From Campylobacter sp. (lineage in GTDB: Bacteria > Campylobacterota > Campylobacteria > Campylobacterales > Campylobacteraceae): a DNA stretch of 25,775 nt. A program made the translations under genes and the position numbers. Where the stretch lies: the NCBI GenBank assembly GCA_017506845.1, contig JAFVMP010000221.1:1-25775 (forward strand), read 5' to 3'. The notes beneath the pieces are model-generated. The model saw only the letters and a program-made list of their open reading frames with translations, did not search any database and was not told the DNA's origin. This document shows positions 1 to 25,775 of this stretch, one piece after another; the stretch's first letter is position 1, and the number at the start of each line of letters is the position of its first letter.

Positions 1-387
1 TCAGAAGAATTACCAGCATTAACTAAATTAACCAATGAAGAGGATGTAAACAATTTATATTATGCTTTAAATAAATTAACTTCTTTTACTCACAATTTAA
101 ACAAACAAAAATCTTTTAGTAATTTTACTTTCACTTTATTTGCTCTACTTGCTTTGCCGAGTTTGGCATTGGCTGGCGGACTTTCGAGCGCTGAAAATTT
201 ACTTAATACAGTTTCAGGGTGGTTAACTGCTTTGTCAGCAGTTACTGTTACTATTGCTATCTTGGTAGTTGGCTATAAAATCACATTTGGTGGTCAAACA
301 ATTAGAGAATGCACGCCGATCATTATTGGTGCTGTTTTAATTGCATCTGCTTCAACTATAGCTGGTTTAATGCTTGGCAACATCTGA
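1..387 (+). CDS. virB2: VirB2-like major pilin, 5' end outside window
   Basis: The frame is open from base 1 and has no ATG before the mature region, so the gene starts to the left of the window. 128 codons are visible. The product is the type IV secretion pilin subunit, which sits in the inner membrane and is then assembled into the pilus. A hydrophobic leader (TLFALLALPSLALA) ends in a signal peptidase site at about visible residue 58. The mature part is about 70 residues with two membrane segments (around SAVTVTIAILVVGYKI and IIIGAVLIASASTIAGLML) joined by a short loop, as in the VirB2/TrbC family. A TTG at 154 lies inside the leader and is not a sensible start. The visible pre-sequence is at least 58 residues, longer than a usual leader. 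The stop (385-387) overlaps the ATG of the next gene. Identification is by length, topology and position first in the virB order. Confidence 0.85.
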   Translation, partial: SEELPALTKLTNEEDVNNLYYALNKLTSFTHNLNKQKSFSNFTFTLFALLALPSLALAGGLSSAENLLNTVSGWLTALSAVTVTIAILVVGYKITFGGQTIRECTPIIIGAVLIASASTIAGLMLGNI

Positions 388-3194
388 TGATAAATAAAGA
401 ACCTGTTTATAAAGCTATGACACGCCCAGCAATGATTTTCGGCATTCCTTTAATGCCATTTATGCTTGTGTGTTCGATTTTTGCTTTGATTGGTGTTTAT
501 ACAGAGATTTTTATGGCACTCTTAGGAGTGCCTGTATTATATGGTATGAAGCTTATGGCTAAAAAAGATGATTTGATTTTTAGACTTTGGTGGTTTAAAA
601 TCTTTTTGGCTTCTAATCCAAGAAATAGCTTATTTTATGGGGTAAAATCATTTGCACCCAGCCTATATCCTAAGCAAAAGCTTCATAAATTTGACATTCC
701 AAATATAGAAATATTAGCGAGTAAAAAAATGTTAAATAAGCCTACAAATTTATCAGTTATACCATCATTTGAAAAATTTATACCCTACGAAGTTAGTATA
801 AAAAATATTGTTTTAACAAAAAATTTTGATTTTATAGCTACTTATGCACTTGAAGGTATTGATTTTCAAGTTGAAAGCGACGAAGACAATGATTATGCAA
901 AAAATATATTACACTCATTTTTTAAGCAGTTTTTAGGAGATAAAATCAGTTTTTATTTTCATAGTATTAGAACAAGCACAAAACAGAGTTTAGATGGAAA
1001 TTTTAATAATGAATTTGCAAAATGCTTAAATGATGAGTATTTCAAAGGTCTTAATGAACACGCACTTAAAGAAAATAGACTTTATATAAGTATTATATAT
1101 TCGCCTTTTGATAGAACAACAAAATCAACATTTAGAAATTTTATCTCTCGTGATGCATTAAATGCTCGTGATAAACAAATTGTTAAAGAGATATCGCAAA
1201 TGGAGAAAATTTGTGTAAATGTTGAGACTGCTCTAAGTGTATTTAATCCTATAAGGCTTGGAGATTATGAATTTGAAAATGTTACTTACAATTCTCAATT
1301 AGAATTTTTTAATACTTTATTTAATGGCATTCATTATCCTATAATAAAACTTAAATCACCTATTAGTGCTTATCTCAAAGGAAATTTAAATAATATTCAG
1401 TTCTCACAAAATGTTGGGCTTATAAATCTAAATGATGGTTCTAAAAAATACTTTAAAGCAATCGAATTCCAGGACTATCCAAGCGAGACATATGTTGGAA
1501 TACTAGATGAGCTTTTATTTTTAGATATAGACTATGTGATAACACAAAGCTATGTTCCAACAAATATAAAGGAAGCAAAAGAAGCTCTAAAGTCTCAAAG
1601 AAAAAGACTAATTTCAGCGCAAGATGATGGTGTTAGTCAAGTTTTAGAACTTGATAATGCTTTAGATGAGCTCACTAACAATGAAATCGGTTTTGGAGAG
1701 TATCATTTTAGCATTGTGATATATGCAAATAGCAAAGAAGAGATAGAAAAAGCAACAAGTATTGTAGCTTCAGTAATCAATAATCGTGGATTTGTTACTT
1801 CTCAAGCTAATATCGCTCTAGCAGCTACCTATTTCGGGCAATTTCCTGCGAACTTTGCATATAGACCAAGACTTCATAAAATTTCTACTTTAAATTTAGC
1901 TAGTTTAGTATCACTTCATAGCTTTGGCAGAGGTAAAATGTGTAAAAATGCTTGGGGCGACGCAATTACTATGTTTAGAACACCGAACGGGACTCCATAT
2001 TTTTTCAATTTCCACGAAACTGATTTTCAAAAAGACCAATTTGGCGATATGGTACTAGCCAATTCCCTTGTTATTGGTAAATCAGGTGGTGGTAAAACAA
2101 TGTTGATGAACTTTATTTTAGCACAGATGACAAAATTTGCTGATAAAACTTCTTTTCCATCGGATTTGCCTGATAATGCAAAAAAACTTACTATGTTTTA
2201 TCTTGATAAAGATAAAGGTGCCATTGGTAATATAATGGCACTTGGTGGCAAATATATTATCGTTAAAGATGGCGAAAATAGTGGTTTTAATCCATTTATG
2301 GTTGAATCAACAAATGAAAATTTAAATAAACTAAAAACTCTAATGAAAATGCTTGTAACACGCAATGGCGAAATTCTCACAACTCTAGAAGAAGAGAATC
2401 TGAATAGAGCAGTTGAGAGTGTTATGAGATTTCCAATTGAAGATAGGCAATATGGTATTAGTCTAGTTTTGGAGCATTTGACCGAAGGTAGCGATGAGAC
2501 AAATTCAATGAAATCACGCTTAAATTTATGGAAGTCAGGCAATAAGTTTGGATGGGTGTTTGACAATGCAATTGATAATTTTAAATTTGACAATGACGAA
2601 ATTAACATTTATGGAATTGATGGAACCGATTTACTTGCTAATGCTGAAGTTAATGGCGTTGTTAGTTTTTATATTTTATGGCGTATATTTAGTGTTTGCG
2701 ATGGTAGGCGTTATGCTTGTTTTATTGATGAAGCTTGGGATTGGATTCGTAATGAAACAGTAGCCGATTTTGTATTTGATAAAGAAAAAACGATTCGTAA
2801 GCTAAATGGTTTTTTAGTCCTAGGAACGCAGAGTGTTGAAGATTTCGCAAAATCTCCAATAGCACGAGCTATTTTAGAGCAATCTGCGACTCTTGTCTTA
2901 TTGGCAAATGACAAAGCACAAGAAGAGGATTATTGCAAAGCACTTAACCTTAGTAAAGAAGTTTATGAGTTTGTAAAAACAACTATGAAAACTGATTACA
3001 AATTTTTAACAATAAAAGATCAAAGATTCAAAACTATTTCAACTATGGATCTTAGCTTTCTTGATAAAAAATATCTAAAAATTTTATCGACAGGAAAAGC
3101 ATACACAGAGCCTTTAGAACATATTTTAGATAAAAAATTGCCATATTTAGAACAACTTCAAGAAATTTATAAACTTTATGAAGGAGATAAATAA
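387..3194 (+). CDS. virB4: VirB3-VirB4 fusion ATPase of type IV secretion
   Basis: This is a 935-residue fusion of the small membrane protein VirB3 (about residues 1-75, with two hydrophobic segments around IFGIPLMPFMLVCSIFALIG and IFMALLGVPVLYGM) to the VirB4/CagE ATPase. VirB4 powers pilus and channel assembly at the inner membrane. The Walker A motif GKSGGGKT is at residues 564-571 and Walker B CFIDEAWDW has D781-E782. The C-terminal LGTQSVEDFAKS segment is typical of VirB4. The start is set at ATG 387, which overlaps the virB2 stop (TGATG); a GTG or TTG-led extension upstream would only translate virB2 out of frame. The gene abuts virB5 with no spacer, and AAGGAG near its end serves as the virB5 ribosome site. 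Fused VirB3/VirB4 is known from Campylobacter plasmids and Helicobacter elements. Confidence 0.95.
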   Translation: MINKEPVYKAMTRPAMIFGIPLMPFMLVCSIFALIGVYTEIFMALLGVPVLYGMKLMAKKDDLIFRLWWFKIFLASNPRNSLFYGVKSFAPSLYPKQKLHKFDIPNIEILASKKMLNKPTNLSVIPSFEKFIPYEVSIKNIVLTKNFDFIATYALEGIDFQVESDEDNDYAKNILHSFFKQFLGDKISFYFHSIRTSTKQSLDGNFNNEFAKCLNDEYFKGLNEHALKENRLYISIIYSPFDRTTKSTFRNFISRDALNARDKQIVKEISQMEKICVNVETALSVFNPIRLGDYEFENVTYNSQLEFFNTLFNGIHYPIIKLKSPISAYLKGNLNNIQFSQNVGLINLNDGSKKYFKAIEFQDYPSETYVGILDELLFLDIDYVITQSYVPTNIKEAKEALKSQRKRLISAQDDGVSQVLELDNALDELTNNEIGFGEYHFSIVIYANSKEEIEKATSIVASVINNRGFVTSQANIALAATYFGQFPANFAYRPRLHKISTLNLASLVSLHSFGRGKMCKNAWGDAITMFRTPNGTPYFFNFHETDFQKDQFGDMVLANSLVIGKSGGGKTMLMNFILAQMTKFADKTSFPSDLPDNAKKLTMFYLDKDKGAIGNIMALGGKYIIVKDGENSGFNPFMVESTNENLNKLKTLMKMLVTRNGEILTTLEEENLNRAVESVMRFPIEDRQYGISLVLEHLTEGSDETNSMKSRLNLWKSGNKFGWVFDNAIDNFKFDNDEINIYGIDGTDLLANAEVNGVVSFYILWRIFSVCDGRRYACFIDEAWDWIRNETVADFVFDKEKTIRKLNGFLVLGTQSVEDFAKSPIARAILEQSATLVLLANDKAQEEDYCKALNLSKEVYEFVKTTMKTDYKFLTIKDQRFKTISTMDLSFLDKKYLKILSTGKAYTEPLEHILDKKLPYLEQLQEIYKLYEGDK

Positions 3195-19431: not shown

Positions 19432-22400
19432 GTGTTAAAAAAATTATTAGATAAAAACAGCAAAGAGATATTAGAAAAATATAATTTAAATTTTGATGAG
19501 TTAGGCTGGGCGGTTGAGCATAGTGTATTAAATAGTTTAAATATTAATTTCACAGCTCAAGATAGATATGCTTTAATAGGGATTGGAGCGATAAGAGGAG
19601 CCATAAGCAGATATGAAAATTTGCATAAAAATAGTATGGCTACATATAGAGATGATCTATTTGGCGAAGCTAAAAATATAGTAGACTTTACTTTAGATGA
19701 TTTTAGCTATATTAAAACAGTTGCTAATTATCAAAATATAAAAGATAGATTGGCTAAGAAAATACGGGATGAAGTTAGGCTAAATTTAGAAAGAATAGGA
19801 GTTATAAATGAGATTAGAGACATTAACGCCAGATATATACAACACGATAATTCCACAATACATAGGCAAGAATCCACCGACAATGCTCAACAAATTTCAA
19901 GGAGCGGGGATAGGAGAGAGCAGAGCGATACTACAAGAGACGCTATATCAACACAAGGATTGGTGGGAGAAACTAATTACAATACCAGCACAAGAGCTGA
20001 TGGATATATTCAGTCTAGAAGCCTTGATAGAGAAGGAATTTCATCTAGTGGATCTAGGTTGGCAGAGCAAGGAGAGCAATCCAACAATAGAGAAGACAAA
20101 AGAGAGAATAACACCGCAATACAAAGAGATTTTAATACAAACTCTAATGAAATCAGGGACAACAGAACTTTGGACTCAGGAATTGAACGAGAGATACGAC
20201 CTGATACCAGAGCTGGAGTTTCAAGAGAGCAAGAAACTTCATCAACTACTCAAAAACAGTATGAATGGGACGACCGACACAATGAGCCATATACTTCCGA
20301 TTTCAGCAGTGGAGCCACTATTGGTGATAGAGGCGATATACAATCTACGAAAAACATTTTTGGAGATGAATTGGGGGTGGAAGCTAGAATTAATGAAGGC
20401 TCAGGATATATATTGGGGAGCAGTAGCTCAATCACTAATAATGCAAATTTGGTTTTGGGAGAACAGACACAACACTCTAACATCAGAGATAACCAAGCCA
20501 TCACCACTGAAAGGATTTGGGCTGATACGAACCTTACATTGGATCTCAGTAACTTCAAAGATGATGGCATTGCCACAGGAATTTCGCAATCAACTATGGA
20601 ATTTGATGATAGAATACGACCTAGCTCAAAAGGAATTTCAAGCACAGATGATACCGATATATCTCAAAAAGATAAAAGAGATATCGATACCAATAAGACA
20701 GAATATCCAACCATCACTAAAAACTGGAGCGATGATCTACTCAGCAATTCAGCTCAAAAATGGAATCCAAAAACCATACGAGATAGTAGCGACGGAGATG
20801 AACTCAATGAAGACCACACTAGATCAGATGGGGATGGAGATAGATTTAGCCACAGGCAAGGCAGTCAAGCTAGACAAAATCAGACACACTCAACTACTCA
20901 AGGAGTTATGGGAAGAAGAGCAGAATTCTCGCAAGAAAGAGTATTACGAACTGATTCATCAATGGATGATGAAAGATTACGAAACTCTCCAAGAAGCATT
21001 AATTTGGAAGAAAGAGCTAATCGACTCAACGCTAGCTTGGATATTACCAAACAAGGAAATGAGCCAAGAGATGGATATGAAAGAAGTGGAATATATGGTG
21101 AAAAACGAATGGTATTACCAGCTACCGATGATAGTTTACGGTACAGACAAGACAGCCTATTCTCTGCAATTGATGGAGAAAAAATGGTTAGAGATTCGAC
21201 AATTGATAATGGGAAAAAACAGTCCATACAATCATCTTTTAACGCAGAATTACACTCAAGAAATGATAGATATATTAGTCAAGATTTGCGAACTAGGCAA
21301 ACCAACGAACAAAGAGATAATCGAGAAAATGGAGCTTATCAAAATAACTCCGATAGAAATTTAAAAGAGTATATTTTAGATAATTACTCTCAAATAGGGA
21401 GTTTCGAAGTTGTCTCTGTGGATTATAATACCATGGAGACACCTATAACAAAATCTGCTAGATTACAAAGCAATTTAGAAGCTATAGAAACACTTTTTGC
21501 TCTTAAAAGTGCCGAAATAGATATTAGACAAAAATTTAATATTAATAAATTAGATAATAGAAATCATATCTATGCAAATAAAGAGAGCCTAGAAAAGCTT
21601 AGTAAATATACTGGATTTGGTGGTTTAAGTGGATTTTTTAATGATAGCAATAAAGATTTTGACAAAGAAAGAGATAAATTTAATGAAATTATTAGAAAAT
21701 ACTCACATTTAGATAATGAATTTAATTTTAATAGCTTAAAAACCCAATTAGAATTAAGTTCTGATAATGCATATTATACACCTACATATATCATAAATAG
21801 CATAAATGAAATTACAAAGAAATTAGGTATTGCTAGCAATAATGAAGAAAAATTAGAGATTTTAGAGCCTTCAGCTGGTATTGGTAGATTTATTAACAAC
21901 TGTGATTTAAATGCAAATTTTACAGCATATGAATTAGATAAAATCACTGCTGATATTTTAAAATTTATTCAGCCAAACACTAATGTTATAAATAAAAATT
22001 ATCTAAGTGATATCAAAGAGGCTAAATATGATTTAGTTATAGGCAACCCTCCATACGGAGCTAATAATTTAACTGATAAATTTGTTGAAAAAGCTTTAGC
22101 AAATACCAAAGATGGCGGATTTGTTATATTTGTAACTTCAAGCCGTTTTTTGGATAATTGCAATATGGAGATAAAAAAAATTATAGATGGGAATGATAAT
22201 ATAGATATAATTGATACTCAAGAAGTTGGATTTGAGGGTATTGGTAGATTTATAGGTGCTTTAAGATTGCCACCTGATGTTTTTAAAGATCAAGGCGTAT
22301 CAATATCTACAGATATAGTTGTTTTTCAAAAAGGCTATACATATGAAACTACCAAAGATGATAATGGAGAGATCAAAACTATGAAAAGAACTCCATTAGC

Positions 22401-25400
22401 TAATAAGTGGGAGCAAAATAAAGATGAAATTTATGATTTTAAATTTCATATAAAAGATTTAGAAATTATGGAAGCATTAAAAGAACATTATATCTTTTAT
22501 GGAGATAAAAAAAATGAGATATATTTGAGTCAAATTATAGGTGTTGATAATTTGCAAGAATTAAAAAATGATAATAATTTTAAACACGATATAATCATAA
22601 AACTAAAAAAAGGATTAAATAGTAAAAACAAGGAATTATATGAAAAATTCTTTGGATATGAAGATATTAATAGCTTTGATTTGGATTATGAAAAACTGGG
22701 CTATTCTATGTTATATTACAATGAAATCGAAAAAGTCAAATTTAACTTATATAAGACTAACAGTTATTTTCTAAATAATCCAAAAAACAATTTAACAACT
22801 GAAGCAATTGTAAATTCATCAAGATTTGGCTATGAGTTAAAAATAGATCATAAAGCAAATATAGAATTTGACCAGCAAATAATTAGTAATGAAATAGCAA
22901 AATTTGCTAATAGACTTCCTGAAAATATTTTTAAATATACAAAGATAGAAAAAAATCTATTTGAACTAGAATTATCAAATATGCCTACAAATACTCAAGA
23001 ATATTATAGTAGTCTTTCTGTCAATTCATATGTCGCAATAGAACAAGATATTTATAAAATAAAAGATAAAAATAGTGATAATTTTACAATATCATTGGAA
23101 AAAATTGAAACAAGTGAAAGCGAGAAAAAATTTGTTAAATCCTATATAAAATATAGAGATGCTATAATGAGAAAAATAGATATAGATAATGATTTTACCA
23201 TAGATAATAACGATATTCGCATAAGTAAAGCAAGAGATGAAGTACATACTGTGGCATTTGATTTGTATGGTAAAAATGGAAAGCCTATTAAATCTGTTAA
23301 GCGTTTCAGCGATGATCCGAGTATGGGAATGATGTTATCGTTAATATACCCTGAAGAACAACCTAATGGAACTTTTATTTTTAAAAGATCTAAAATACTC
23401 GATGAAAGAGTAATAACAAATAAAAATGATAATACTGAATTTGTTTTTAAAAATCCTAGCGAAGGTGTTTTAAGCTCAATTTCTAAATATGGTTATATAA
23501 ATGTGCATTATCTAGCCAATGAAACTGGTTTAAGTATTGAAGAAACAAGAAATGAACTTTATAATAGTAATAGCGATATATTTTTTACAAACCCTGATTA
23601 CTTAACTGGTAAAACTATTAATATAGAAGAAGAATTTCTCTTTAGAGAACAATATTTAAGTGGTAATGTAATAAAAAAAATAGAAGAAGCTCAAAAATTA
23701 ATTGAAAAATATTCATTTTTAGAAAAAAATATAAAAGAATTAAATGCTCGTAAACCTGAAGCACTAAGCCTTGATGATCCTATTACAATAAATTTTGGAG
23801 TAGATTTTGTTCCAATACATATCTATAAAGATTTTATAGCTCAAAAATTTAAAACCGATCCTAAAAATGTAGATTTAAAATATTTTGAAATAAATGTAGG
23901 AAAAAGCGAGGGTTTTGGATGGATGCTTAAAGTAAATGGTGGTAGAAAAACATACATTACAAGTAGAATTACAGATGTTGATGTTTTAGAAAATACTATG
24001 AATACTAAATCAACTCGCATTACCAAAGATGGCAAAATAGACAAAGAAGCAGTGATGAAAGCTGATATAATTTCAAGAGATATAAAAAGAGAATGGAGTG
24101 ATTGGATTAATAATAAACCTGAATATCTAAATGAAATTTACAATCTATATACTGATAGATATATGTGCTATGTAGATCCAAAATACGATGGTAGTATTTT
24201 AACTTTTAGTTCCCAAATACCTCTTAGAGAGCATCAGAAAAATGCAGTATTTAGATGCAATATGGAGAAAAACACATTCCTAAATCATCAAGTAGGAAGT
24301 GGCAAAACTATGACTGCTATAGCAACAGCAATCGAAGGTAAAAAACTTGGAACTATCGAAGGCAAAACTTTAATAGTTGTAAAACCTGAAACACAAGCTG
24401 GTTGGATGAGTGAAATTTATAAAACCTACCCAAATGCCTCTGTATTAAGTAGCTCTATGGTTGAATTTAAACAATCAGATCCTAGTGAATTTCTGAGAAA
24501 AATGGCTAATTTTGATGGTGATATAGTGTTGATTACACATAATGAATTTGCTAATATAGAAAGACCAATAGAAGTAAAAATAAAAATTTTACAAGAGAGA
24601 ATAAGTGCTATAGATAGTATAATTAACGAAGTTAATATTGATAGAGAAAGGGAATGGAAACCAAAAGCTCTGCCAAAACTTCAATCAGAGTATAGAAAAG
24701 AGATTAATAATCTTATGATTGAGGCTAACACTGATAAAACTTTAAAAACAAAACTTACAATTGATAAATTAGGCATTGGTTGTTTTGTATTTGATGAATT
24801 TCAAGAAGCCAAGAACATGGAAACTTTCACAGCTCTAAAAGCTCGTGGGATTAGAAATTCTAAAGGCTCAAGGCTTGGAAATGCTCTTTTAGAAACTAGC
24901 TATACATTTAATAAAGAAAGTTGTAACACTAAAATGATTATGTTGAGCGGAACGCCAATCTCTAATGCTCCATATGAATTATATAATATTATGAGAATAA
25001 TGTCGCCTGAGACATTAAAAGAAACACGCCTAAACAGCCTTGATAGCTTTATGAGGGTTTATGGAAATATTGAAATAGATTATGAATTATCGCCATCAGG
25101 TGTATCTATGATTGAGACTACTAGAAATAAAGGATATACCAATCTAATTGAGCTTGGCAATATGACTAAGACTATATTTGATAATATTACTAATGAAGAT
25201 GTTGAAAGAGCTATGGATGGCAAATTTGTTCCTAGAGCAAATTATATCCCAGTCTTTTTAAAGCCTACAGATTTCCAGTTGGAAGTATCGCAAAATATAG
25301 CCTCTACTATAGAGAATTTAAAAGGAGGCGAATTGTTAGCAGAATATACAAAAGGTAGAAAAAATGGAACTGATCCTAGATTAATTTCAAATCGATCAGA

Positions 25401-25775
25401 ACTTGATGAAGATAAAACTAAAATTAATTCCTTAATAAACAATGTAGTCACTGAATATGAAAATACTAAAGAAATAAAAGGCACACAGCTTGTTTTTATG
25501 GATTTAGGAACACCGCAAATAAAATCTTATAATATCTTAAATGGAGTAGAAGAAATATTAGATGATAAAGAGATTGAAAATTTAAAAAAAAGTAATGCTT
25601 ATGAGCTAGGATTGATTAAAAAATCAATTATTACTGCTGAAGGAGATAAGATCGAAGCATATTATAGCGAGAGTGAAAATACATACTATAAAGCTCATAT
25701 AATTGGTTCAAGTGTTGAATTTTCTGAATTAAATGAAGACACAGGGTTATCTTTAATGGATATTTCAAATGATAA
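19432..25775 (+). CDS. Giant N6-adenine methylase / SF2 helicase, 3' end outside window
   Basis: One frame is open from GTG 19432 to the right edge (2114 codons), with AAGGA at 19420-19424, 7 bases before the GTG. Residues 1-125 are ordered and unrecognised. Residues about 126-643 are Ser/Thr/Asp/Arg/Asn/Gln-rich, apparently disordered, and coincide with an overlapping ORF. Then come YTGFGGL (from 726), YYTPTYI (from 781), methylase motif I EPSAGIG (812-818) and the catalytic NPPY (872-875), all marks of N6-adenine methylases. The SF2 helicase follows: GSGKT (1622-1626), DEFQ (D1788, in place of DEAH) and SGTP (1839-1842). This order is that of large phage P1 DarB-like methylase-helicases common on conjugative elements. 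In DarB the role is protection from restriction; the same role here is inferred. The C-terminus is not visible. Confidence 0.92.
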   Translation, partial: MLKKLLDKNSKEILEKYNLNFDELGWAVEHSVLNSLNINFTAQDRYALIGIGAIRGAISRYENLHKNSMATYRDDLFGEAKNIVDFTLDDFSYIKTVANYQNIKDRLAKKIRDEVRLNLERIGVINEIRDINARYIQHDNSTIHRQESTDNAQQISRSGDRREQSDTTRDAISTQGLVGETNYNTSTRADGYIQSRSLDREGISSSGSRLAEQGEQSNNREDKRENNTAIQRDFNTNSNEIRDNRTLDSGIEREIRPDTRAGVSREQETSSTTQKQYEWDDRHNEPYTSDFSSGATIGDRGDIQSTKNIFGDELGVEARINEGSGYILGSSSSITNNANLVLGEQTQHSNIRDNQAITTERIWADTNLTLDLSNFKDDGIATGISQSTMEFDDRIRPSSKGISSTDDTDISQKDKRDIDTNKTEYPTITKNWSDDLLSNSAQKWNPKTIRDSSDGDELNEDHTRSDGDGDRFSHRQGSQARQNQTHSTTQGVMGRRAEFSQERVLRTDSSMDDERLRNSPRSINLEERANRLNASLDITKQGNEPRDGYERSGIYGEKRMVLPATDDSLRYRQDSLFSAIDGEKMVRDSTIDNGKKQSIQSSFNAELHSRNDRYISQDLRTRQTNEQRDNRENGAYQNNSDRNLKEYILDNYSQIGSFEVVSVDYNTMETPITKSARLQSNLEAIETLFALKSAEIDIRQKFNINKLDNRNHIYANKESLEKLSKYTGFGGLSGFFNDSNKDFDKERDKFNEIIRKYSHLDNEFNFNSLKTQLELSSDNAYYTPTYIINSINEITKKLGIASNNEEKLEILEPSAGIGRFINNCDLNANFTAYELDKITADILKFIQPNTNVINKNYLSDIKEAKYDLVIGNPPYGANNLTDKFVEKALANTKDGGFVIFVTSSRFLDNCNMEIKKIIDGNDNIDIIDTQEVGFEGIGRFIGALRLPPDVFKDQGVSISTDIVVFQKGYTYETTKDDNGEIKTMKRTPLANKWEQNKDEIYDFKFHIKDLEIMEALKEHYIFYGDKKNEIYLSQIIGVDNLQELKNDNNFKHDIIIKLKKGLNSKNKELYEKFFGYEDINSFDLDYEKLGYSMLYYNEIEKVKFNLYKTNSYFLNNPKNNLTTEAIVNSSRFGYELKIDHKANIEFDQQIISNEIAKFANRLPENIFKYTKIEKNLFELELSNMPTNTQEYYSSLSVNSYVAIEQDIYKIKDKNSDNFTISLEKIETSESEKKFVKSYIKYRDAIMRKIDIDNDFTIDNNDIRISKARDEVHTVAFDLYGKNGKPIKSVKRFSDDPSMGMMLSLIYPEEQPNGTFIFKRSKILDERVITNKNDNTEFVFKNPSEGVLSSISKYGYINVHYLANETGLSIEETRNELYNSNSDIFFTNPDYLTGKTINIEEEFLFREQYLSGNVIKKIEEAQKLIEKYSFLEKNIKELNARKPEALSLDDPITINFGVDFVPIHIYKDFIAQKFKTDPKNVDLKYFEINVGKSEGFGWMLKVNGGRKTYITSRITDVDVLENTMNTKSTRITKDGKIDKEAVMKADIISRDIKREWSDWINNKPEYLNEIYNLYTDRYMCYVDPKYDGSILTFSSQIPLREHQKNAVFRCNMEKNTFLNHQVGSGKTMTAIATAIEGKKLGTIEGKTLIVVKPETQAGWMSEIYKTYPNASVLSSSMVEFKQSDPSEFLRKMANFDGDIVLITHNEFANIERPIEVKIKILQERISAIDSIINEVNIDREREWKPKALPKLQSEYRKEINNLMIEANTDKTLKTKLTIDKLGIGCFVFDEFQEAKNMETFTALKARGIRNSKGSRLGNALLETSYTFNKESCNTKMIMLSGTPISNAPYELYNIMRIMSPETLKETRLNSLDSFMRVYGNIEIDYELSPSGVSMIETTRNKGYTNLIELGNMTKTIFDNITNEDVERAMDGKFVPRANYIPVFLKPTDFQLEVSQNIASTIENLKGGELLAEYTKGRKNGTDPRLISNRSELDEDKTKINSLINNVVTEYENTKEIKGTQLVFMDLGTPQIKSYNILNGVEEILDDKEIENLKKSNAYELGLIKKSIITAEGDKIEAYYSESENTYYKAHIIGSSVEFSELNEDTGLSLMDISND
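19797..19801 (+). promoter_or_regulatory. Internal ribosome binding site of the overlapping ORF
   Basis: AGGAG lies 6 bases before ATG 19808, within the giant gene. This is as good as the ribosome sites of the other genes in the window and supports separate initiation of the +1-frame ORF. Confidence 0.65.
19808..21364 (+). CDS. Overprinted 518-residue ORF in the +1 frame of the giant gene
   Basis: An ATG with AGGAG 6 bases upstream opens 518 codons wholly inside the methylase-helicase gene. The protein is not recognised. It looks like a foldable, mostly helical, Leu/Ile/Glu/Lys-rich protein without signal peptide or membrane segment, and with unusually many Trp (about 20) and Met; examples are LYQHKDWWEKLITIPAQELM and TLQEALIWKKELIDSTLAWI. 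It covers just the part where the giant protein is low-complexity. Codon choice shows both frames are kept open. In the giant frame all 12 ATA codons here precede C or T, while all 17 Ile before A or G are ATT/ATC. In this frame all 9 Tyr before AA- or GA-type codons are TAC, and TAT is used only elsewhere. Alternative: a chance by-product of a biased disordered region, which these patterns make unlikely. Confidence 0.7.
   Translation: MRLETLTPDIYNTIIPQYIGKNPPTMLNKFQGAGIGESRAILQETLYQHKDWWEKLITIPAQELMDIFSLEALIEKEFHLVDLGWQSKESNPTIEKTKERITPQYKEILIQTLMKSGTTELWTQELNERYDLIPELEFQESKKLHQLLKNSMNGTTDTMSHILPISAVEPLLVIEAIYNLRKTFLEMNWGWKLELMKAQDIYWGAVAQSLIMQIWFWENRHNTLTSEITKPSPLKGFGLIRTLHWISVTSKMMALPQEFRNQLWNLMIEYDLAQKEFQAQMIPIYLKKIKEISIPIRQNIQPSLKTGAMIYSAIQLKNGIQKPYEIVATEMNSMKTTLDQMGMEIDLATGKAVKLDKIRHTQLLKELWEEEQNSRKKEYYELIHQWMMKDYETLQEALIWKKELIDSTLAWILPNKEMSQEMDMKEVEYMVKNEWYYQLPMIVYGTDKTAYSLQLMEKKWLEIRQLIMGKNSPYNHLLTQNYTQEMIDILVKICELGKPTNKEIIEKMELIKITPIEI

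Follow-up and report, generated by a model that had tools for sequence, protein, structure and literature searches.

The window analysed here is a 25,775-nt stretch of contig JAFVMP010000221.1 from Campylobacter sp. (assembly GCA_017506845.1), and its 3' end is occupied by P0001, a giant gene for a DarB-like N6-methylase/SNF2 helicase. Wholly inside this gene, on the same strand and shifted by one nucleotide, lies a second long open reading frame (ORF), P0002. We propose, at a probability of about 0.82, that P0002 is a true protein gene nested in the giant methylase-helicase gene of a conjugative element, and that its product is what selection guards, the giant frame across it being merely kept open. 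The features of the locus are collected in Table 1.

Table 1. Features of the giant gene and of the ORF nested within it, in positions of the window.
Feature	Position	Strand	Details
Giant DarB-like N6-methylase/SNF2 helicase gene (P0001)	19432..25773	+	GTG start after AAGGAA; runs off the contig end
N-terminal leader of the giant protein, upstream of the overlap	19432..19806	+	Relatives have a giant-frame leader here too
Shine-Dalgarno sequence AGGAG of P0002	19797..19801	+	Spacer TTATAA, 6 nt, then ATG
Giant-frame stretch over the embedded gene	19807..21363	+	Polar, disordered-looking linker without stops; GC by codon position 0.44/0.44/0.29
Embedded +1-frame gene (P0002)	19808..21364	+	ATG to TAA, 518 codons, wholly inside the giant frame, offset +1
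LPD36-like and N6-methylase core of the giant protein	21457..22386	+	GFGG at residue 728; from alignment

The giant protein matches PHROG 10089, a DarB-like antirestriction family, at 2.9e-131. Its N6-adenine methylase motif NPPY lies at residue 872, and N872, P873 and P874 are invariant in alignment A1, as are the glycines of the GxG(G/A/S) motif of the LPD36 type that precedes the methylase; the LPD36 assignment follows the motif as described in PMC5512222 (section 14), and not an LPD36 profile. C-terminal to the methylase, residues 1610-1955 match the Pfam family SNF2-rel_dom (PF00176) at 9.9e-13 and 48.3 bits, with a cut-off of 24.9. The putative role of DarB-like methylase-helicases is to protect incoming element DNA from restriction.

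The first-pass annotation of the window had proposed P0002 as an overlapping gene with a start codon and ribosome-binding site of its own. Both frames are indeed without a single stop over the 518 codons, and an AGGAG stands 6 nt before the ATG. A TAA in the frame of P0002, at 19805-19807, directly abuts its ATG, so that the open frame starts exactly at the start codon; the last codon ends at 21361, about 95 nt before the aligned LPD36-methylase module. When the giant codons of the overlap were shuffled synonymously, 17.3 stops appeared in the +1 frame (minimum 9), and when they were redrawn from the rest of the giant gene the figure rose to 26.6 (minimum 17), with none observed. In the other direction, synonymous shuffling of the P0002 codons produced 19.3 stops in the giant frame (minimum 10), and redrawing them with the codon usage of the window produced 43.8 (minimum 27), again with none observed; each of these tests comprised 2000 draws. 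When all giant codons were permuted 2000 times, no +1 run exceeded 148 codons, compared with the 518 observed.

The codon counts agree with these tests. The 18 giant-frame codons ending in TG precede G in 17 cases, C in one and, as had been claimed, A in none. Those ending in TA number 22 and not 21; the claim that 21 of them stand before C or T holds, and the remaining one, before A, is part of the stop codon of P0002 itself. Isoleucine is encoded by ATA 12 times before a pyrimidine and never before a purine, and by ATT or ATC 17 times before a purine and seven times before a pyrimidine (Fisher p = 4.5e-5). The constraint ends with the ORF, as anticipated: downstream of it, ATA precedes a purine 60 times and a pyrimidine 11 times. 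In the +1 frame, tyrosine is TAC in all nine cases in which TAT would stop the giant frame. Taken together, the shuffling tests in both directions and the codon counts confirm that synonymous choice in the window serves both frames, the pattern of dual coding inferred in the first-pass annotation.

Two further tests were dropped. Helical periodicity did not separate real +1 proteins from chance, and the codon log-likelihood test had its negative set in the wrong phase; in the latter P0002 scored 0.70 bits per codon, the overlap shuffles 0.66-0.68 on average and the true +1 frames of ordinary window genes 0.11-0.68.

The same arrangement is found in relatives of the giant gene. P0001 matched 25 of the 153 genomes of the window's family, and regions from 20 of these 25 yielded 19 other giants and a truncated copy (L033), which was excluded. 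In 15 of the 19 giants a long +1 ORF of 165-447 codons precedes the methylase, and in 13 of these its length is over 1.3 times the maximum of 30 codon shuffles; the other two (L034 and L040) are not outstanding by length and were counted because they are homologues of the others. At the level of the order, 55 of 398 genomes had a match to a methylase profile, and many of these matches sit in short open frames that are probably ordinary methylases. Among 18 order-level regions, 13 (L218-L230) have a long +1 ORF of 163-424 codons and two (L232 and L233) a short one; no giant ORF was recovered in L235. A GGAG lies within 20 nt of the ATG in 27 of the 32 +1 ORFs, the window included, as counted by eye. 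L057, L076 and L088 were left out of this count and of the family counts: L076 and L088 have long +1 stretches with no profile match and no Shine-Dalgarno sequence at the listed starts, and the 135-codon stretch of L057 is within the range of its shuffles and has AAGGAA before its ATG, with no profile similarity. The gap between the last +1 codon and the aligned module is about 45 nt in relatives of the pTet type and reaches about 390 nt in L052, the window lying between them.

A hidden Markov model (HMM) of the +1 proteins extended the family to a relative in Desulfovibrio (1.2e-7). The family profile that includes this relative (A4) matched 21 of 297 genomes of the relative's order; the figures for the window's order and class were 11 of 298 and 41 of 397, from two draws of genomes that overlap each other. 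In the Desulfovibrio order, a longer ORF of 443-2242 codons covers the nested one in 19 of 20 regions (the exception being L301), always with the nested ORF in frame +1 (19 of 19) and in 18 cases with GGAG before the chosen ATG; these loci were chosen by their +1 match, so the count speaks for the frame and not for prevalence. Several of them are identical, and 16 distinct sequences entered the selection test. Of the 14 regions from the class search, 11 hold the ORF in frame +1 inside a longer one, L325 and L326 have partly broken copies and L328 has a copy that stands alone. The covering ORF carries the methylase motif in seven of the 11; the other four covering ORFs, of only 271-353 codons and without the motif, probably lie in truncated giants.

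Among plasmids, a pTet-type query matched 212 records (206 from Campylobacter, six from Helicobacter) and a Desulfovibrio-type query matched 65 at E <=0.1 and 67 at E <=1, with Pseudomonas foremost at 30; the frame of these matches was checked in pTet, in an H. suis plasmid and in four of the 65-67 Desulfovibrio-type records. A search of the viral_contigs collection with exact patterns from A4 found nothing, and members were found later by iterated HMM in fetched contigs. A giant ORF was recognised in 53 of the 80 viral contigs kept, and in 11 of these the iterated profile picked out a total of 12 nested ORFs, every one in frame +1, with a weaker one in L154; the covering frame in these 11 runs through ORFs of 3,499-4,891 codons. 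In one viral contig, two +1 ORFs of the embedded family lie in succession inside a single giant gene (L118:9159-9809). The Desulfovibrio-order, class and viral sets together comprise 49 copies: 42 nested in frame +1, five standing alone and two broken.

Several features of these loci are recorded in their own right. L254 is a broken copy of the nested gene, like L325 and L326. In L252, L253, L255 and L256 no giant was recognised, yet an ORF in another frame still extends across most of the nested one, as though the two had outlived the methylase-helicase or were a recent remnant. The leaders of giants such as L259, L260, L277, L302 and L303 carry QLTLFD, QMSLFD, QLSFFD, QLSFDF or QMTFDF just 5' of the embedded gene, motifs that we take to resemble those that bind the sliding clamp.

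To separate selection on the two frames, changes were sorted into the classes NN, NS (changing the giant protein, silent in +1), SN (silent in the giant frame, changing the +1 protein) and SS, and the downstream stretch of the same genes served as control. In the overlap of eight pTet-type sequences the rates per site were 0.105 for NN, 0.529 for NS, 0.070 for SN and 0.079 for SS; in the control they were 0.053, 0.095, 0.487 and 0.581, respectively. These rates give an NS/SN ratio of 7.56 for the overlap against 0.19 for the control. The same ratio is 3.72 in four Helicobacter-type genes (control 0.49), 4.25 in L054/L228 (control 0.43) and 5.50 in L050/L051 (control 0.32), and, where no control was available, 2.10 in L048/L049 and 2.32 in the Desulfovibrio type. 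Expressed as the ratio of non-synonymous to synonymous rates (dN/dS), the giant frame (NN/SN) stands at 0.95-1.50 in six overlaps compared with 0.11-0.37 in four controls, and the +1 frame (NN/NS) at 0.20 (0.15-0.26) in the pTet type, 0.26 in the Helicobacter type, 0.27 in L054/L228 and 0.23 in L050/L051. Six further sets without controls gave similar partitions: +1 NN/NS is 0.19-0.49 and giant NN/SN 0.71-1.30 in the viral-contig copies, and 0.38-0.44 and 1.49-1.74 in the Pseudomonas-plasmid copies. Across all pairs compared, conservation is higher in the +1 protein than in the overlying giant frame, for example 0.80 versus 0.56.

The giant frame nevertheless avoids stops. In 21 Campylobacterota copies none is observed, compared with 5.8-15.4 expected in each when the +1 codons are shuffled synonymously. 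Position, frame and selection are thus observed in the relatives: the +1 ORF is kept at the same place, its protein is under purifying selection, as the comparison proposed in the first-pass annotation was meant to test, and the giant-frame linker is near neutral in its amino acids, yet kept open. Such an overlap is cheap, because the amino acids of the linker hardly matter. The overlapping-gene reading of the first-pass annotation is therefore supported, with two corrections: the host giant frame is the relaxed partner, and the arrangement is not a one-off. The copy in the window itself is presumably translated and selected like those of its relatives.

A number of observations weigh against this reading. 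The nested ORF is not universal: no long +1 ORF is present in L044-L047 among the 19 family giants (L044-L046 having only a short linker) or in giant L337, and none in L231 and L234 among the order-level regions; in phage P1 DarB, whose methylase match begins near residue 91, no nested ORF was seen in front of it. Long disordered regions with +1 stops in homologous elements had been named beforehand as telling against the gene, and L231 is partly such a case, with a long polar stretch before its methylase and 25 +1 stops over 360 codons. The +1 dN/dS of the diverged groups, 0.49 in L048/L049 and 0.44 in the Desulfovibrio type, is weak by itself, since the controls give an imaginary +1 dN/dS of 0.50-0.85 and not 1. 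Alignment followed the +1 protein in the overlaps and the giant protein in the controls, which leans towards our result where there are gaps, and SS counts are tiny, so that SN/SS is scattered. Little can be drawn from the stop test in the 16 GC-rich Desulfovibrio-type copies, for which only 1.1-3.1 giant-frame stops are expected; up to 24% of their shuffles are without giant-frame stops and up to 43% without +1 stops. We found no ribosome or peptide data for the nested gene. For P0002 itself, no homologue was found in the plasmids, phages, genome_contigs and viral_contigs collections, and the 153 family genomes returned only P0002 itself; an AlphaFold2 model of P0002 alone reached a predicted local distance difference test (pLDDT) score of 34.8, was uninformative and was not used.

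The expectation that P0002 would match nothing familiar also held for profile and structure databases, where the best values were 0.065 in Pfam, 0.047 in PHROGs and 1.2 in the Protein Data Bank (PDB), with none in NCBIfam. Comparison with the main-family profiles, by hhalign and by hmmsearch plus hhalign with 50 members, also gave nothing. P0002 is the same arrangement by its frame, place, start signal and avoidance of stops; with no detectable homologue, it shares the arrangement with its relatives and is not counted as a member of the sequence family. It is either diverged beyond recognition or a different gene in the same niche. Two other groups (L048/L049/L052/L230 and L050/L051) likewise resemble neither the main family nor each other by profile, in spite of the same frame and place, and L041 matches the main family weakly (hhalign E 0.0085); L043 and L256 are clear relatives. 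These cases speak for P0002 as a separate gene that arose de novo by overprinting on the relaxed linker, or as a replacement, an account to which we give less than an even chance but take seriously. Rapid divergence is, however, to be expected in a family whose accepted members fall to 23-38% identity to the first sequence, and the identical frame, position and start signal favour common descent.

For the embedded family, a 107-residue Desulfovibrio member modelled with one aligned relative gave an all-helix structure; the best of five models had a pLDDT of 80.5 and a predicted template modelling score (pTM) of 0.71, and two others reached a pLDDT of only 63-65. No fold match to it was found in PDB (best E 8.4) or BFVD (best E 3.3).

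The copies that stand alone bear on whether the embedded protein acts with the giant. At L301:2506-3825 (genome G741) four copies follow one another in tandem, every ATG preceded by AGGAG and no copy covered by an ORF of at least 200 codons, and no giant ORF was recognised within the 12-kb stretch. At L328:2072-2599 (genome G064) a single member has AAAAGGAGA before its ATG and no covering ORF of at least 120 codons, and there is no giant ORF on the same strand within the 11-kb stretch. Nesting is therefore not absolutely required, and the protein may act alone, for example in an anti-defence or toxin-antitoxin-like role, being nested only to travel with the giant. We consider this the less likely reading given that 42 of the 49 copies are nested in +1 of a longer ORF, mostly of this gene type, although the Desulfovibrio-order and viral loci are not random draws.

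Existing annotation has treated the two frames as competitors. In the records L302 and L305 (RefSeq) and L306 (GenBank) the +1 ORF is a hypothetical protein and the methylase-helicase starts after it, about 520-760 nt 3' of an upstream ATG in the same open frame; the late start follows from the +1 ORF having been called instead. The L303 and pTet records show the giant and no +1 ORF, from a gene table stated to be incomplete. These trimmed starts, together with the near-neutral evolution of the giant-frame amino acids in the overlap, would suit a gene order in which only the +1 gene is translated, the methylase-helicase starts downstream and the openness of the giant frame is incidental. We regard this as very unlikely, since the giant frame has no stops where 19.5 are expected in the window and 5.8-15.4 in the Campylobacterota relatives given the +1 protein. 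It also has a leader with a possible start upstream, remains open through the +1 ORF up to the upstream ATG in L302, L303, L305 and L306, and is continuous through the covering ORFs of 3,499-4,891 codons in the 11 viral contigs. That only the giant gene is real, its +1 openness arising from composition or low complexity, is least probable of all: the giant-frame composition of the overlap is indeed biased and polar, and the stretch is 39% GC, compared with 30% for the whole giant gene, but the same codons give 17 stops (minimum 9) when shuffled synonymously and 23 (minimum 14) when permuted freely, and in the relatives the +1 protein is conserved and its start signal usually kept, which contradicts a composition-only account there.

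We therefore return to the reading of P0002 as a nested gene, and to how it would work. One messenger RNA (mRNA) would be read in two ways. Ribosomes starting at the giant GTG would produce the methylase-helicase, whose leader and LPD36-methylase module would be joined by a long, floppy linker, and ribosomes entering at the internal AGGAG would make a separate protein from the same bases; this embedded protein would be the product guarded by selection, and the overlying giant frame would only be kept open. The embedded protein most likely serves the DarB-like methylase-helicase as a small helical partner or regulator made alongside it, a role that we infer from its nesting in this gene type over large distances and from the shared mRNA.

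Upstream in the window, the genes 5' of the giant match VirB3/VirB4, VirD4, topoisomerase III and DnaG primase; the VirB3 (residues 28-117) and VirB4 (from residue 152) matches share one open frame at 309-3194, apparently a fused gene. The genome, an assembly of 1.54 Mb in 250 contigs, holds a second copy of the giant gene (G000:C69; L033:7841-9877), which has 56% identity over residues 1441-2113, is truncated at its 5' end and contains one internal stop. No close relative of the giant core was found in viral_contigs.

The giant gene belongs with the DarB-like methylase-SNF2 dyad of polyvalent proteins (phage P1 DarB, H. pylori OrfQ and the pTet SNF2-related protein), with which it shares the LPD36-type GxGG motif, the NPPY N6-methylase, the SNF2 helicase and the conjugative context. 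The available part of PMC5512222 describes the DarB-like dyad with LPD36, names no nested gene and uses the word 'overlapping' 0 times, and the orfQ passages of PMC2731543 name no nested gene. Within the accessible portions of the openly licensed literature searched we found no description of a nested gene in DarB-like giants, although one may exist elsewhere. The short +1 ORFs of the distant giants L232 and L233 match TnpV (PF14198) at 5.4e-5 and 0.0028, with scores of 23.6 and 18.1 bits that lie under the curated cut-off of 27, and this similarity may be taken as a hint only. No TnpV match was found for P0002, for the main-family members L036, L042, L221, L228 and L229, or for seven further members scanned. 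In the DarB-like gene of Ochrobactrum phage POI1126 (L304), a +1 stretch resembles the TnpV-like short ORF of L232 (E 1e-4).

In general form the arrangement resembles other overprinting in bacteria and viruses, in which two proteins are drawn from one stretch on the same strand, shifted by one. Next to the published cases compared, it appears to differ in occurring on plasmids, on chromosomes and in viral contigs from several bacterial groups, and in that the long frame, and not the nested one, is the relaxed partner. Long, conserved and fully nested genes are reported to be rare in bacteria and to be excluded by annotation rules.

More broadly, and tentatively, at somewhat under even odds, many DarB-like methylase-helicases of plasmids, integrated elements and phages may hide a nested second subunit, the linker DNA, freed from amino-acid constraint, keeping +1 genes over very long times and across phyla and sometimes having them replaced by unrelated ones, as with P0002. 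If so, annotation has missed a hidden subunit or set it against the giant gene, in an arrangement that recurs across plasmids, chromosomes and viral contigs, including Helicobacter, Desulfovibrio-related genomes and Pseudomonas plasmids. The arrangement itself offers a clean natural example of an overlap where the constraint falls on one frame while the other serves as a free linker, and this division would account for the overlap being tolerated; and if the nested protein is the partner of the methylase-helicase, work on DarB-type proteins and OrfQ has lacked a subunit.

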